Below, piece after piece: positions 1 to 4,417 of a DNA stretch of 64,000 bases. The DNA is from Pseudomonas chlororaphis subsp. piscium. Lineage in GTDB: Bacteria > Pseudomonadota > Gammaproteobacteria > Pseudomonadales > Pseudomonadaceae. The stretch covers positions 2,604,001 through 2,668,000 of the forward strand of contig NZ_CP027707.1 in the NCBI RefSeq assembly GCF_003850345.1, in the 5' to 3' direction. The notes below the pieces were generated by a model. The model searched no databases. It saw nothing but the letters and a program-made list of their open reading frames with translations, and was not told the DNA's origin. How positions within the stretch are numbered: position 1 is the stretch's first letter; each line of letters begins with the position of its first letter. A program made the position numbers and the translations under genes.

Positions 1-174
1 CGGGTGATCAAGGGCTGGGACCAGGGCCTGATGGGTATGCAGGTCGGCGGCAAGCGCAAGCTCTTGGTACCGGCGCACCTGGGCTACGGCGAGCGCTCGA
101 TGGGTAAGATCCCGCCGAATTCCAACCTGGTGTTCGAGATCGAGTTGCTGGAAGTCCTGACTCGCGACGACTGA
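1..174 (+). CDS. FKBP-type peptidyl-prolyl cis-trans isomerase, 3' end
   Basis: The window opens inside this gene. The 57 visible residues, from RVIKGWDQGL to EVLTRDD, are the C-terminal half of a small single-domain FKBP. GWDQGL, LGYG and the closing FEIELLEV strand are typical of the fold, which catalyses proline cis-trans isomerisation in protein folding. The stop is TGA at 172-174 and a perfect hairpin follows at 185-216. The missing N-terminus lies left of the window. The unusual point is that 14-216 is repeated in the same orientation about 1800 bases downstream (see the entry at 1813), so this gene end borders an inserted toxin module. Only synonymous changes separate the coding parts of the two copies. 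Confidence 0.93.
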   Translation, partial: RVIKGWDQGLMGMQVGGKRKLLVPAHLGYGERSMGKIPPNSNLVFEIELLEVLTRDD

Positions 175-184
175 TTTCGCCCAT

Positions 185-216
185 CGCCCAGGCCGGGGCG
201 CTGCCTGGCCTGGGCG
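185..216 (+). terminator. Hairpin after the FKBP gene
   Basis: The arms CGCCCAGGCC (185-194) and GGCCTGGGCG (207-216) are perfect 10-base complements around a 12-base loop, ten bases after the FKBP stop. No strong T-run follows, so termination is inferred from the stem and its position. A diverged version of the same hairpin follows the second FKBP copy at about 1986-2016. Confidence 0.55.
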
Positions 217-316
217 CGTTATGCGGGCTCTATCTTTACTTTCTGGCCTGCAAACTCACGCTCTTGTAAACGTGTATCGATTCTCTGGGGCGCGGGTGGG
301 GCTAGAAAATATGTCC

Positions 317-556
317 CTATGCTTCAACGCCAATGTACAGTTTCAAATCAGTTGGGAGTGGTTGCCCTATGATTTCTGATATTGCTGCTATTTGTTCATT
401 GGTTAGCAGCCATTCGCCTTCCGCCATGGCGTTAAGGCTGGTATGGCCGAGAGTTTCTACAATTTGCTTGTTATAGGTGCTGTCTACATCAAGCTCATAC
501 TTGAGCGAGTCATCTTCTCTGCTATTGAGCAAAAAACCAGTAATACACAAGTACAT
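317..556 (-). CDS. Immunity protein of the pyocin S6 / colicin E3 rRNase type
   Basis: This 79-residue acidic protein begins MYLCITGF and ends LKLYIGVEA. It resembles the small immunity proteins paired with pyocin S6-like rRNase toxins, which bind and block the cognate nuclease domain and protect the producer. I place the start at ATG 556 rather than the in-frame GTG at 562, because GAGG at 565-562 then lies five bases upstream. That ribosome site overlaps the toxin stop codon, so toxin and immunity are translationally coupled, as usual for bacteriocin pairs. The AT content is higher than in the neighbouring chromosomal genes, which fits acquisition by transfer. Assignment rests on recalled family resemblance and on position directly after an E3-type toxin. 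Confidence 0.78.
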   Translation of the reverse strand: MYLCITGFLLNSREDDSLKYELDVDSTYNKQIVETLGHTSLNAMAEGEWLLTNEQIAAISEIIGQPLPTDLKLYIGVEA

Positions 557-564
557 AAACACCT

Positions 565-1701
565 CTATTTTTCTACTGTTCGACCGGGTTTGACGGGCTT
601 GGTCTGCTCACCCGTTTCAGGGTCGAATTCGCCAAGATGCTTCCCTTGTTTATCGTATATTTCGACCGCGCCATGCTGGCTGTCCCACTCGTAAATACGG
701 CCTTTACGATCCTTCCAGCGTTTACGCATTGCTCCTCCGCCTTGAACCCTGGTTTTAGAGTCTGCTCTTACCGCGTCAGGAAAAGCTGTCAGGCCTTTAG
801 GTGGTGGATAATAGCTATGGTCTCCCGGAACACTCAGCGAAATATAAATCGGCTGAATATCGGTGCTGGGAAACCAGATAATCGCGTCTTGGTAGTCGGG
901 CGGATGCACTGGGTTGACCAGTATCTTATCGGCCTGCTCAGTGGGAGGGTAAACCCACACAGGTGGTAGTTGCGGGGCACCTTCTAGAGCAGGAATACCT
1001 AGGGCACTGTCAGGGCTCGCCGCTGGCGTCCAAGTGAGTCCAATCCCGTTACCGATGTCTGCGACGTAGTTTTCGCCGTCCTTCTTAGCCTTGATGACTG
1101 GAGCATTCTCCCAGTCCGTTTTACCGCCTGTGTAGAACCCGTAAGCGTTAACGGAGCCGTCCGGCAAGGTCTTCACGTTGACTCGCACACGAGTGCGGCC
1201 AGCATCAAGCGTGGAGTACTGATCGTTTTTGTAAAATGCGCTATCGGGGGAAATGCTGGTGTTTGGTATTAACAGGGCAATTGTGCCCCCAACAGCGCAA
1301 GCCGCGACAGCTCCGGCACTTTCTAGCAGTGTGAGAAAAAGTGATCCGCCAAGACGTTTGGCAATGGCGCTGCCAGTGGCAGAGCCGCCCACCAATTGGA
1401 GAGAGGAACCTTCCGCTGTGATTGCCGTCCCGGTAGCTAATACAGCCCATAGCCCGTAATCAGCCAGCTTCTCAACAGGCACAAATCCGGCCGGATTCTT
1501 GTGATCGATCACACCGTCAGGCAGGTTGCAGCTTTTGGCAAAGACACAACCCATGGTGACGGGTTTGTCTTCTGCCTTTGGCGGCAGGTCTTTGTATTCG
1601 GCCCAGCGTTGGGCGCCCAGATCGACGGGCTCTACACCCTTGTTGCGATAGCCCTTCGGGGCGTTCGGTACGTAGCCACTCATCCGTGTTCGCGTCCACA
1701 T
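565..1701 (-). CDS. S-type pyocin-domain bacteriocin with colicin E3-like rRNase domain
   Basis: The protein has 378 residues. The N-terminal part has MGCVFAKSCNLPDGV and an Ala/Gly-rich hydrophobic stretch. The middle (about 140-280) resembles the pyocin S domain, and the last 60 residues match the colicin E3 16S-rRNA cytotoxic domain. The key E3 residues appear retained in WDSQHGAVE: Asp340, His343 and Glu347, with Arg374 near the end; the position of E3 Glu515 is Ala. It is short beside classical S pyocins (over 600 residues) and has no obvious TonB box, receptor-binding or translocation region. The start is uncertain: ATG 1701 and ATG 1683 (MSGYVPN) are in frame and neither has a good ribosome site. 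No LexA box was recognised upstream. The immunity gene follows directly. Confidence 0.85.
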   Translation of the reverse strand: MWTRTRMSGYVPNAPKGYRNKGVEPVDLGAQRWAEYKDLPPKAEDKPVTMGCVFAKSCNLPDGVIDHKNPAGFVPVEKLADYGLWAVLATGTAITAEGSSLQLVGGSATGSAIAKRLGGSLFLTLLESAGAVAACAVGGTIALLIPNTSISPDSAFYKNDQYSTLDAGRTRVRVNVKTLPDGSVNAYGFYTGGKTDWENAPVIKAKKDGENYVADIGNGIGLTWTPAASPDSALGIPALEGAPQLPPVWVYPPTEQADKILVNPVHPPDYQDAIIWFPSTDIQPIYISLSVPGDHSYYPPPKGLTAFPDAVRADSKTRVQGGGAMRKRWKDRKGRIYEWDSQHGAVEIYDKQGKHLGEFDPETGEQTKPVKPGRTVEK

Positions 1702-1812
1702 TGTCCATAAAGAAAGCCCCCGTCAGAGGGGAGCGAAGAGCATTTGCAGTTGGCTTAGGGACGCTAGTGGATTCGGCTATGGAGGGTCTGTAGGGACAAT
1801 CTGAAAAATGGT

Positions 1813-1974
1813 GGCTGGGACCAGGGCCTGATGGGCATGCAGGTCGGCGGCAAGCGCAAGCTTTTGGTGCCGGCGCACCTGGGCTACGGCGAGCGGTCGA
1901 TGGGCAAGATCCCGCCGAACTCCAACCTGGTGTTCGAGATCGAGCTGCTGGAAGTCCTGACCCGCGACGATTGA
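1813..1974 (+). pseudogene. Second, 5'-truncated copy of the FKBP gene end
   Basis: From GGCTGGGACC onward this stretch repeats 14-174 at a constant offset of 1800 bases, stop codon included, and homology continues through the downstream hairpin to about 2016. About ten differences separate the coding parts, all synonymous (for example GGT/GGC, TTG/CTG, GAC/GAT). There is no start codon or N-terminal half, and homology begins abruptly after AATGGT. It is therefore a remnant or a recombination arm, not an expressed gene. The synonymous-only divergence means both copies evolved as working gene ends, probably in different strains, before being brought together. Confidence 0.9.
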
Positions 1975-2173
1975 TTTCGTCCACCGGTCAGGTCAGGAGA
2001 TCTGCCTGATCTGGCCGCGATGCCTATGACCTTCCTCCGTAAACCCCTCCTTGAAATCGTGTCTCCGTGCTTCGTCAGGCGGGGCTGGGTCGTGGGTGAT
2101 CGACAGGCAGTGGTGGACGATCGGTGTCATCGAGCCCTTGCGCAGGCCAGCGGCATCGGCCAGGATGTGCGTC

Positions 2174-2198
2174 ATATAGGTATAGGGGGTATAGGTAT
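2174..2198 (+). promoter_or_regulatory. Putative DmeR/RcnR-type operator
   Basis: The sequence ATATAGG-TATAGGGGGTATA-GGTAT is a near-palindrome with a G5 core flanked by TATA. CsoR/RcnR-family metal sensors bind AT-rich inverted repeats around a G/C tract, and this closely resembles the DmeR box I recall from rhizobia. It runs up to and into the ATG at 2197, so repressor binding would also cover the likely ribosome site (GGGGG, 2185-2189). Confidence 0.7.
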
Positions 2199-2469
2199 GT
2201 CGCACACGCACGCACAGAAAGACGACTTGCTCAAACGGGTCCGGCGCATTCTTGGCCAGGTGCAGGCCGTGGAGCGGGCCCTGGAATCCGGCGCGGAGTG
2301 CGCCAAGACCCTGCACCTGGTGGCGGCCACCCGTGGCGCGATCAACGGGCTGATGGGGGAAATCATCGAGGCCCATGCCCTGGAGCATGTGGCTCACCCC
2401 GAACTCAGCGATGAAGAACGGGCCAAGGGCGTGAGCGAACTGCTCGAAGCCATTCGCCGATATTCCTGA
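2197..2469 (+). CDS. dmeR: Metal-sensing repressor of the RcnR/CsoR family (DmeR-like)
   Basis: This 90-residue protein begins MSHTHAQKDDLLKR and is all-helical in character. It has the family pattern of an N-terminal His, a Cys in GAECAK, and paired His in AHALEH, which together make up the Ni/Co-binding set of RcnR-type sensors. In this family metal binding releases the DNA. I use ATG 2197; a longer in-frame reading from 2020 has no family similarity before the Met. It is followed after 14 bases by a cobalt/nickel exporter of the cation diffusion type, so the pair is best read as dmeRF. The palindrome at 2174-2198 suggests autoregulation. Confidence 0.87.
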   Translation: MSHTHAQKDDLLKRVRRILGQVQAVERALESGAECAKTLHLVAATRGAINGLMGEIIEAHALEHVAHPELSDEERAKGVSELLEAIRRYS

Positions 2470-2483
2470 CCGGAGACCATCCC

Positions 2484-3440
2484 ATGAGCCCCACCTTGCC
2501 AGCCACAGGTTTGACCCACGACCACCACTTCCTCGGTGCCGCCCACGATGAAAACGCCCGGCGTACGCTGTGGGTGGTGGCGCTGACCTTCGTCATGATG
2601 ATCGGCGAGATCGCCGCCGGTTATCTCACCGGTTCCATGGCCTTGCTGGCCGACGGCTTCCATATGGCGACCCACGCCGGGGCCCTGGGCATCGCGGCGG
2701 CGGCCTACGGTTTCGCCCGGCGCAATGCCGACAATGCGCGCTTCAGCTTCGGCACCGGCAAGGTTGGCGATCTGGCGGGATTCGCCTCGGCGCTGATCCT
2801 CGGCCTGGTGGCCATCGGCATCGCCGGTGAATCTCTGCTGCGGCTGTTGCAGCCGACCCAGGTGGCCTTCACCGAGGCGACGGTGATCGCCGTGGTCGGG
2901 CTGCTGGTGAATATTGTCAGTGCTTTGCTGCTTTCCGGTGGCCATGCCCATCACGGCCACGATCACGGTCATCAGCATGCTCATGAGCATCCACACGAAC
3001 ATTCACAGGGGCATGGCCATCACCACGACAACAACCTGCGCTCGGCCTATGTCCATGTGCTGGCCGATGCCCTGACCTCGGTCCTGGCCATCGCCGCGTT
3101 GCTGGCGGGGCGTTATCTGGGTTGGGTCTGGCTCGACCCGGTGATGGGCATAGTCGGCGCCCTGGTCATCGGTCGCTGGGCCTATGGCTTGATGAAGTCC
3201 AGCGCGGCGGTGCTGCTCGATACCACGGACGAACACCTGGCCGGCGAGATTCGCCATTCGGTGGAAGCCGCCGGCGATGCGCGCATCACCGACCTGCATG
3301 TGTGGCAGGTGGGCCCGCAGGCGCGGGCAGCGATTGTCAGCGTGGTAGCGGCTGCCGGTGTCAGCGCCGAGACCATCCGCCAGCGTCTGGCGCCGGTCCA
3401 CGAGCTGTCGCACCTCACCCTCGAATATCGCAGCCTGTAA
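2484..3440 (+). CDS. dmeF: Cation diffusion facilitator, Co/Ni efflux (DmeF-like)
   Basis: This 318-residue inner-membrane protein exports divalent metal in exchange for protons. The six-helix CDF layout is visible, with a metal site in ALLADGFHMATHA (helix 2) and a matching ADALTSVLA in helix 5. A long His-rich cytoplasmic loop lies between them (about 153-180, many HGH/HEH motifs), and a C-terminal cytoplasmic domain carries ITDLHVWQVG. The His loop and the linked RcnR-type repressor favour cobalt and nickel over zinc. It starts 14 bases after dmeR and is probably co-transcribed with it. It ends two bases from the convergent hydrolase gene. Confidence 0.87.
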   Translation: MSPTLPATGLTHDHHFLGAAHDENARRTLWVVALTFVMMIGEIAAGYLTGSMALLADGFHMATHAGALGIAAAAYGFARRNADNARFSFGTGKVGDLAGFASALILGLVAIGIAGESLLRLLQPTQVAFTEATVIAVVGLLVNIVSALLLSGGHAHHGHDHGHQHAHEHPHEHSQGHGHHHDNNLRSAYVHVLADALTSVLAIAALLAGRYLGWVWLDPVMGIVGALVIGRWAYGLMKSSAAVLLDTTDEHLAGEIRHSVEAAGDARITDLHVWQVGPQARAAIVSVVAAAGVSAETIRQRLAPVHELSHLTLEYRSL

Positions 3441-3442
3441 TG

Positions 3443-4417
3443 CTAGGCCCCTGTCTGCACCGCAGGCGGGCAGGGGTAGTTTCTCCCAAGAAAATCCAGC
3501 AACCGCAGATTGACCTCTTCGGCCTGTTCGCTCTGGATCCAGTGCCCGCAATCCGCCAGCCGATGCTGTTCCAGGCGTGGCACCTTGCCGGGCATGCGCT
3601 CCAGTGTACGGGCTTCCAGCTGGCCCACCGGGTCGCGGTCGCCGATCATGAACAGGGTGGGTTGGCTCACCTGGCGTTCGCCCAGGTGTTCGGTCCGTTG
3701 CCAGTTGCGCTCGAAGTTGCGGTACCAGTTCAGGGCACCGCGAAAACCTCGCCCCGCGAAGGTGCGCCGGTACACCGCGAAGTCCTCCGGCGTGCACCAG
3801 GCGGGCGGTGCCAGGTGCGGCGGCATGCCCTCGAACAGCAGGGCCGACGGACCTTTTTCATCCAGCAGGTGTTCGCAGTCGTGCATGAAATGCAGCAGGC
3901 TGCGGTCGATGTCGGCGTCCAGTTCCCGCTCGGCGACGCCGGGTTTCTGGAAGTACAGGATGTAATTGAAACGCTCGGCGAACAGCTCGGCCATGATCTC
4001 CACGGCCGGGCGTTTGGGGCGGCCGGCGAAAGGCACCGAGAGGGCCACCAGGGCCTTGACCCGCTGCGGCTCCAGCAGCGCCAGGTGCCAGGCGACCACG
4101 GCGCCCCAGTCGTGACCGACGATGCAGGCCTGCTCCTGTCCCAGGGCATCCATCGCCTGCTGGATATCGGCGCACAGGGTCAGTACGTCATAGGCGGCTA
4201 CATCCTCTGGGGCGCTGCTGTCGCCGTAGCCGCGCATCTGCGGAATCAGCACCCGGTAGCCGGCGGCCACCAGCGGCGCCACCTGCCGGCGCCACGAATA
4301 CCAGCACTCGGGAAAACCGTGCAGCAGCCACACCGGCGGTCCATCCAGCGGTCCGGTGGCATGCAGGTGCAATTCGATGCCATTGAGCTTCAGGGCATGT
4401 TGGGTCATCTGACTCAT
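3443..4417 (-). CDS. Alpha/beta hydrolase, epoxide hydrolase-like
   Basis: The protein has 324 residues and the soluble epoxide-hydrolase pattern: HGFPE (33-37) for the oxyanion region, GHDWGA (101-106) with nucleophile Asp103, a cap region, GDRDPV for the charge-relay acid, and DCGHW with the catalytic His. An Asp nucleophile points to epoxide or haloalkane chemistry rather than esterase activity. It lies on the same strand as the monooxygenase and P450 genes, 91 bases further on, so it could act on a product of the P450, though co-transcription is only an inference. The substrate cannot be read from the sequence. Confidence 0.82.
   Translation of the reverse strand: MSQMTQHALKLNGIELHLHATGPLDGPPVWLLHGFPECWYSWRRQVAPLVAAGYRVLIPQMRGYGDSSAPEDVAAYDVLTLCADIQQAMDALGQEQACIVGHDWGAVVAWHLALLEPQRVKALVALSVPFAGRPKRPAVEIMAELFAERFNYILYFQKPGVAERELDADIDRSLLHFMHDCEHLLDEKGPSALLFEGMPPHLAPPAWCTPEDFAVYRRTFAGRGFRGALNWYRNFERNWQRTEHLGERQVSQPTLFMIGDRDPVGQLEARTLERMPGKVPRLEQHRLADCGHWIQSEQAEEVNLRLLDFLGRNYPCPPAVQTGA

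Follow-up and report, generated by a model that had tools for sequence, protein, structure and literature searches.

Effector-immunity displacement is a known way in which antibacterial modules replace one another at a fixed chromosomal place. In the type VI secretion system (T6SS) of Vibrio cholerae, one report describes sequential displacement of effector-immunity modules, with displaced 3′ ends and orphan immunity genes, and proposes homology-facilitated illegitimate recombination as the route (Kirchberger 2017, PMC5361080). That type of recombination is reported for P. stutzeri and two other competent species, and most events had microhomologies of 3–10 base pairs (PMC3240628). Among bacteriocins of the P. 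fluorescens group, the group N1 combines PF06958 with a variable nuclease domain, including the colicin E3-type PF09000, according to the bacteriocin section of a third report (Loper 2012, PMC3390384). How bacteriocin and effector genes spread between strains without mobile-element machinery is an open question. The stretch analyzed in this study, called the window below, comprises 64,000 nucleotides of Pseudomonas chlororaphis subsp. piscium (positions 2604001–2668000 of the 7.07-Mb chromosome). It opens inside the housekeeping gene fkbp and carries, between the end of this intact gene (end A) and a second, truncated fkbp end (end B), an E3-type toxin gene with its immunity gene. End B is probably the remnant of a tandem toxin-leader-fkbp unit, and the flanks of fkbp appear to be a recurrent place of module exchange.

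Like the Vibrio T6SS arrays, this locus seems to receive modules at a fixed anchor without an integrase, and gene 3′ ends and orphan immunity genes stay behind; the displaced end there belongs to an effector gene within a T6SS cluster, whereas here it belongs to fkbp. Effector-immunity displacement as known from Vibrio T6SS and Rhs is the closest known process, anchored in this case on the end of a housekeeping gene. Prophages and islands also integrate in gene 3′ ends and restore the gene end. The duplicated, diverged gene end and the intact gene are common to both situations, but here no integrase lies nearby, there is no short identical core, and the second ends seen in other species are of unequal length. 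A toxin slot at fkbp was not described among the papers listed in literature searches (titles and the beginnings of abstracts, with subscription journals mostly outside the coverage), and the bacteriocin section of the N1 report makes no mention of one.

Two fkbp ends around a toxin module

An earlier note on this DNA had described a direct repeat of about 200 bases, at an offset of 1800, that spans the FKBP C-terminus, the stop codon and a hairpin and encloses an E3-type toxin and immunity pair. The repeat was recovered by an independent search (13–197 and 1813–1997, 92% identity, spacing 1800), and BLAST aligned the two copies with 186 of 207 positions identical and one gap (E 1e-77), running into the terminators to +44 past the stop. 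The toxin and immunity genes were recognized by PF06958, PF09000, colicin E3 sequences and NF040643 (Table 1). For the extent of the repeat, the coding part and stop codon hold, with 153 of 162 bases in agreement over 53 FKBP codons and the stop; the hairpin part does not hold to the same degree, as only 22 of the 44 bases 3′ of the stop are identical without gaps. The intact gene is a 112-amino acid open reading frame (ORF; L007:5836-6174) that starts 165 bases ahead of the window. Ends A and B differ in nine codons, and all nine changes are synonymous, as the note had stated, indicating that both fkbp ends of this genome evolved as functional gene ends. The idea that end B is part of a conserved gene, which the note had raised as a possible objection, was rejected: the toxin leader runs directly into end B mid-gene.

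Table 1. Features of the fkbp locus, in coordinates of the window
Feature	Position	Strand	Basis
3′ part of intact fkbp; end A is 13–174	1..174	+	Pfam FKBP_C; full 112-amino acid ORF in L007
Terminator-like sequence after end A, divergent from the end B counterpart	175..218	+	22/44 ungapped; BLAST to +44 with gap
Immunity gene, 81 amino acids, pyocin S6 / E3 type	317..562	-	NCBIfam NF040643, 118.8 bits against a cut-off of 30
Predicted toxin, 378 amino acids; short N-terminus, Pyocin_S 169–287, E3 Cytotoxic RNase 299–377	565..1701	-	Pfam PF06958, PF09000; colicin E3 chains
Toxin leader; hairpin and T-run at 1734–1716 (-)	1702..1812	-	95% second copy upstream of intact fkbp, L007:5593-5707
Junction GGCTGGGACCAGG; GGCTGGG common to leader flank and fkbp	1813..1825	+	Only shared 7-mer
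Second fkbp end (end B), 53 codons and stop, 5′-truncated	1813..1974	+	Repeat search, BLAST, codon comparison
Terminator-like flank of end B, contiguous with downstream genes	1975..2018	+	Unbroken NFIX28 alignment over window 1813–4000
FrmR/RcnR-type metal-responsive repressor, native downstream neighbor	2197..2469	+	Pfam PF02583
Histidine-rich cation efflux protein, presumably DmeF, native downstream neighbor	2484..3440	+	ORF; tblastn to relatives

The fkbp end is not the only duplicated part. Within the 6 kb inspected upstream of fkbp, the minus strand carries a second leader copy (window positions 1709–1825 are repeated there at 95%) joined to the tail of a different toxin gene; a 118-amino acid DUF6572 gene, which we take as the immunity gene of a deleted sister toxin, adjoins this toxin tail on the same strand. 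Toxin leader and fkbp end are thus both duplicated in tandem in this genome. The closest relative compared, Pseudomonas sp. NFIX28 (L184, FKBP 98%), has the order immunity gene, intact 419-amino acid toxin, leader, fkbp and metal repressor; its fkbp end is single and no module lies between fkbp and the repressor, which is the empty site with one FKBP end that the note had proposed to look for in relatives. Positions -403 to 197 and 1813 to 4000 of our locus each give one unbroken alignment with NFIX28, and positions 1507–1816 (toxin N-terminus and leader) align with the corresponding two parts of the upstream toxin of NFIX28. Because of these alignments, our locus looks like that of NFIX28 with one unit more, the upstream toxin being deleted and the second fkbp being without its 5′ part. 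Since the leader, too, is present twice and the sister toxin upstream has been deleted, end B is better seen as the remnant of a tandem toxin-leader-fkbp unit, and the proposal that a cassette restored the gene end it had displaced is weakened.

Which of the two ends is native was expected to follow from a phylogeny. In the tree, ends A and B are sisters (support 0.79) and the clade with NFIX28 has a support of only 0.22. As the three ends are also about equidistant (9 to 11 differences), neither identity, nor the three-way counts of unique sites (5, 3 and 5 for A, B and NFIX28), nor the tree singles out the native end.

The flanks of fkbp in other pseudomonads

The survey comprised 221 fkbp loci, namely our own, those of 140 of 292 other genomes of the genus with an fkbp match (drawn from the most fkbp-similar matches, to which the listing was confined), and 80 named loci ranked by FKBP identity. 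Merging on identical fkbp plus 600 bases left 197 distinct loci, which are not a random sample (loci and genomes are given as L and G numbers). The median downstream sequence was 7.0 kb, with less than 3 kb at four loci, and ORFs were picked automatically, so that truncated toxins can be missed. A toxin of this family lies within 3 kb downstream of fkbp at 27 of the 197 loci and is convergent with fkbp at all 27. Immunity-type genes in the same interval belong to a 79-amino acid family (23/197), which matches pyocin S6 immunity, and to a 111-amino acid family (42/197) with no Pfam or NCBIfam match, whose position beside toxins suggests an immunity function. Such genes occur at 48 loci, 25 with a toxin and 23 without a toxin cluster, and the latter fit the prediction of displacement. 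Within these 3 kb, the gene found most often is that of the 111-amino acid protein (cluster 0), in many cases without a toxin.

A second fkbp end, counted at E <1e-10, is present at seven of the 197 loci (our own, L031, L045, L049, L087, L227 and L242); weaker matches at L093 (30 bases), at L020 and L259 (21 bases) and at others were above the cut-off and excluded. Second ends occur at 5 of the 27 toxin loci against 2 of the 170 others (Fisher p=0.0006, an optimistic value because related species are not independent). The other 22 toxin-occupied slots have no second end at this cut-off. Between the two ends stand S-pyocin toxins at L049, L087, L227 and L242 and the tip of an Rhs core at L045, which agrees with the expectation in the earlier note that other toxins might be found there. 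Different modules therefore share one anchor, with an E3 ribonuclease (RNase), other S-pyocins and the Rhs tip downstream of fkbp, and, in P. chlororaphis PCL1601 (L185), a PAAR-Ntox44 toxin with a neighbor gene on the upstream side. As in effector-immunity displacement arrays, these modules are accompanied by displaced ends and orphan immunity-type genes. At other loci, fkbp stands directly ahead of the repressor (L016, L023, L048) or ordinary-looking genes fill the downstream interval (PAS-GGDEF by eye; L012, L013, L015). Together with the empty NFIX28 site, the varied modules argue for the exchangeable bacteriocin slot suggested earlier, and the survey supports the view that, in fluorescent pseudomonads, antibacterial toxin-immunity modules repeatedly dock at the flanks of fkbp.

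The second ends differ in their apparent age. Nonsynonymous changes make up 8 of 23 changed codons at L087, 3 of 6 at L049, 2 of 7 at L227, 4 of 8 at L242 and 2 of 4 at L045, compared with 0 of 3 at L031 and 0 of 9 at our locus. Because of these nonsynonymous changes, the second ends of five of the six other loci are read as relics, and our own is read as young. L031 (genome G183) carries two complete fkbp genes with promoter, 426 bases at 98.6% identity that are 1374 bases apart with little recognizable between them, and this two-copy arrangement is a possible intermediate state. Most second ends are closer to the fkbp of their own host, or of a close relative, than to one another. The L087 second end is 83% identical to its own end and groups with other species (tree support 0.74), and in the tree the L227 second end has L216 and L220 as its nearest neighbors, not its own end A. 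At L049 and L227, the junction and an adjoining ORF share 67% DNA identity over 345 bases, from which the junction is judged to be shared by descent. This ORF was considered as a mobility gene and rejected, as it has matches in only 5 of 298 genomes and no Pfam family; its best match after L049's own genome (G088) is on a contig other than that genome's fkbp contig.

With empty, occupied, two-copy and relic forms in many Pseudomonas species, the slot would allow module exchange to be reconstructed stepwise, and it points to a housekeeping gene as a possible anchor of such exchange. It also provides a rule for mining: the neighborhood of fkbp is a place to search for orphan immunity genes and for toxin-immunity pairs that are new. 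Among other genes downstream of fkbp, clusters 10 and 33 (a helix-turn-helix protein and a RelE-like small protein, labeled by eye; 14 and 6 loci) resemble a toxin-antitoxin pair, and cluster 1 is a 128-amino acid family on the minus strand at 33 of the 197 loci.

Origin of the second fkbp end

The reading that we prefer, with a probability of roughly 0.6, is that recombination added a second immunity-toxin-leader-fkbp unit in tandem and that both units then decayed reciprocally. The added unit, with toxin and immunity genes unlike those of the resident, would have entered with fkbp and its neighbor as homology on the right side and, on the left side, with a poorly matched join beyond the terminator of fkbp; no integrase would have been needed. 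The upstream unit would then have kept its fkbp and lost most of its toxin, while the downstream unit would have kept its toxin and lost the promoter and 5′ part of fkbp by deletion between GGCTGGG repeats, the outcome being a single working fkbp beside an intact toxin-immunity pair and an fkbp relic of 162 bases. In favor of this course of events are the NFIX28 arrangement, the duplicated leader, the purely synonymous differences between ends A and B and the complete second fkbp at L031, and further the toxin slot itself (27/197), the association of second ends with toxins (5/27 against 2/170) and the immunity-type loci without a toxin (23/48). The junction points the same way: end B starts exactly at GGCTGGG, the upstream leader is followed by the same 7-mer (as GGCTGGGCCAGG, compared with GGCTGGGACCAGG in fkbp), and no other 7-mer is common to fkbp and the 145 bases after the upstream leader.

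Several observations weigh against a tandem unit that later decayed. The microhomology amounts to 7 exact bases only, and because a loose shuffle test equaled it in 665 of 20000 trials, GGCTGGG as the recombination point is suggestive and not proof, even though it is a unique shared 7-mer of a length known from homology-facilitated illegitimate recombination. Identity changes from part to part of the two units, from about 95% in the leader and 94% in the fkbp end to 22/44 in the terminator, so that the second unit would not be a fresh duplicate of the genome's own DNA and a related donor would be needed; such a donor was not found. Direct repeats alone are not significantly enriched at fkbp ends (7/197) relative to random control windows of 168 bases scored for downstream repeats (13/765; one-sided p=0.09), and what is notable about the repeats is their position, the identity of the gene and the association with toxins, not their number. 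At our locus, L049, L087 and L227, the left edges of the second ends agree to within 3 bases in their fkbp position, for which random deletion is no explanation. Edges differ at L242 and L045. It seems that L049 and L227, and perhaps L087, inherit one event and that ours is separate.

An alternative is a one-step insertion inside fkbp, in which a donor fkbp end with its toxin module would have recombined homologously on the left and illegitimately on the right at GGCTGGG, leaving end B as the displaced native end. This is consistent with the contiguity of end B with the native downstream genes and with the second ends elsewhere, as six of the seven are 5′-truncated (L031, which is complete, is the exception) and six of the seven keep the stop codon (except L049); seven bases also fall within the 3–10 bases of most events in the published account (PMC3240628). 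We consider it unlikely, since by itself it does not account for what lies upstream of fkbp, a second copy of the leader and a deleted sister toxin, and its donor must already have had a toxin downstream of fkbp. The shared left edge at four loci, and a gene end that is kept with synonymous differences only, would also be expected of an integrase-bearing element with an attachment site at fkbp codon 61 and a replacement gene end, of which only the cargo is left. Phages integrating in icd bring such a replacement end. For fkbp this origin is very improbable: identical runs between ends A and B are at most 26 bases long and scattered along the fkbp end, with no short identical core, and the edges are not constant at L242 and L045. 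As the earlier note had remarked, no integrase is in view, the nearest Phage_integrase match (PF00589) being 331 kb from fkbp. In three other genomes it is at least 286 kb away (G262, G183, G252), and the fkbp contig of G178 has none. Serine-recombinase matches (PF00239) are not near fkbp in these five genomes, the set for which distances were taken (L227, L242 and NFIX28 being outside it), and lie farther off or on other contigs; our genome has one, sub-threshold, at 3127805. A crude regular expression, run without a positive control, found no recombinase motif in the window or in the stretches fetched for the 197 loci.

A further possibility, a follow-on of the other readings whose odds overlap with theirs, is that a second end, once formed, makes the module portable by homologous recombination into empty fkbp sites, with host-like ends left behind. 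The best case is L049 and L227, whose junction appears common by descent, yet whose second ends over columns 46–86 agree with the fkbp of their own host (38/41 and 41/41) better than with each other (33/41). Transfer with a crossover inside the fkbp end would leave such host-like ends, but gene conversion within one genome, from one fkbp end to the other, would produce them equally well, and L087, with its distant second end, does not fit; we regard the possibility as tentative and rather doubtful. That duplicated fkbp ends are working homology arms, by which integrase-free toxin-immunity cassettes hop between Pseudomonas species and rebuild fkbp at each hop, is a broader and improbable form of the same idea.

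The toxin, its immunity gene and its leader

The toxin has a C-terminal nuclease domain (PF09000, 2.1e-34), a Pyocin_S domain (PF06958, 1.3e-21, residues 169–287) and an adjoining cognate immunity gene, three of the features of a nuclease bacteriocin. All five solved-structure sequences matched are colicin E3, over residues 294–378 (best E 4e-16). Domains of the E3 family cut 16S ribosomal RNA, and the prediction for this toxin is an E3-like RNase that cuts ribosomes and carries an inner-membrane translocation domain. The Pyocin_S domain is required for passage of pyocin G through the inner membrane and is common to bacteriocins and T6SS effectors, according to one report (PMC9040868). Its domain content places the toxin with the N1 bacteriocins, an assignment that does not draw on the tree of that group in the published account. 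Like colicin E3, it has the cytotoxic domain and an immunity protein of E3 type (NF040643, 'pyocin S6 family toxin immunity protein'); unlike the 551-amino acid colicin E3 chain, it has only 378 residues and no recognized receptor-binding domain. Residues 1–74 match no Pfam or NCBIfam family, which, for profiles, does not equal the absence of a domain. Neither Pfam nor NCBIfam identified a PAAR, VgrG or Hcp part, and the VPA1263 effector model matches residues 75–287 only, with 63.7 bits against a cut-off of 900. The real start may be the methionine six codons in (MSGYVP...). At E <=0.001 the toxin has matches in 148 of 298 genomes of the genus.

Directly ahead of the toxin start, a hairpin is followed by a T-run in the toxin's direction, and both are kept in the second leader copy; they could possibly act as an attenuator of toxin expression. 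A promoter scan found 0 sites against 1.2 expected. The leader was also considered as a widely shared mobile edge and rejected, as only 3 of 298 genomes of the genus, our own included, match at E 1e-3 in a search that scored at most two candidates per genome and missed a weaker copy in our own genome (L008). There, at L008:3352-4818 (about 3.13 Mb on the chromosome), another toxin, whose N-terminus is 73% and whose leader is 77% identical, adjoins a DedA-like gene (labeled by eye), so leader and N-terminus are found together elsewhere too. A sub-threshold resolvase match lies about 2 kb from that toxin. Two further E3-type toxins of this genome (L009:3346-4748 and L010:2911-4116) have different N-termini, and the one at L009 has its own immunity gene.

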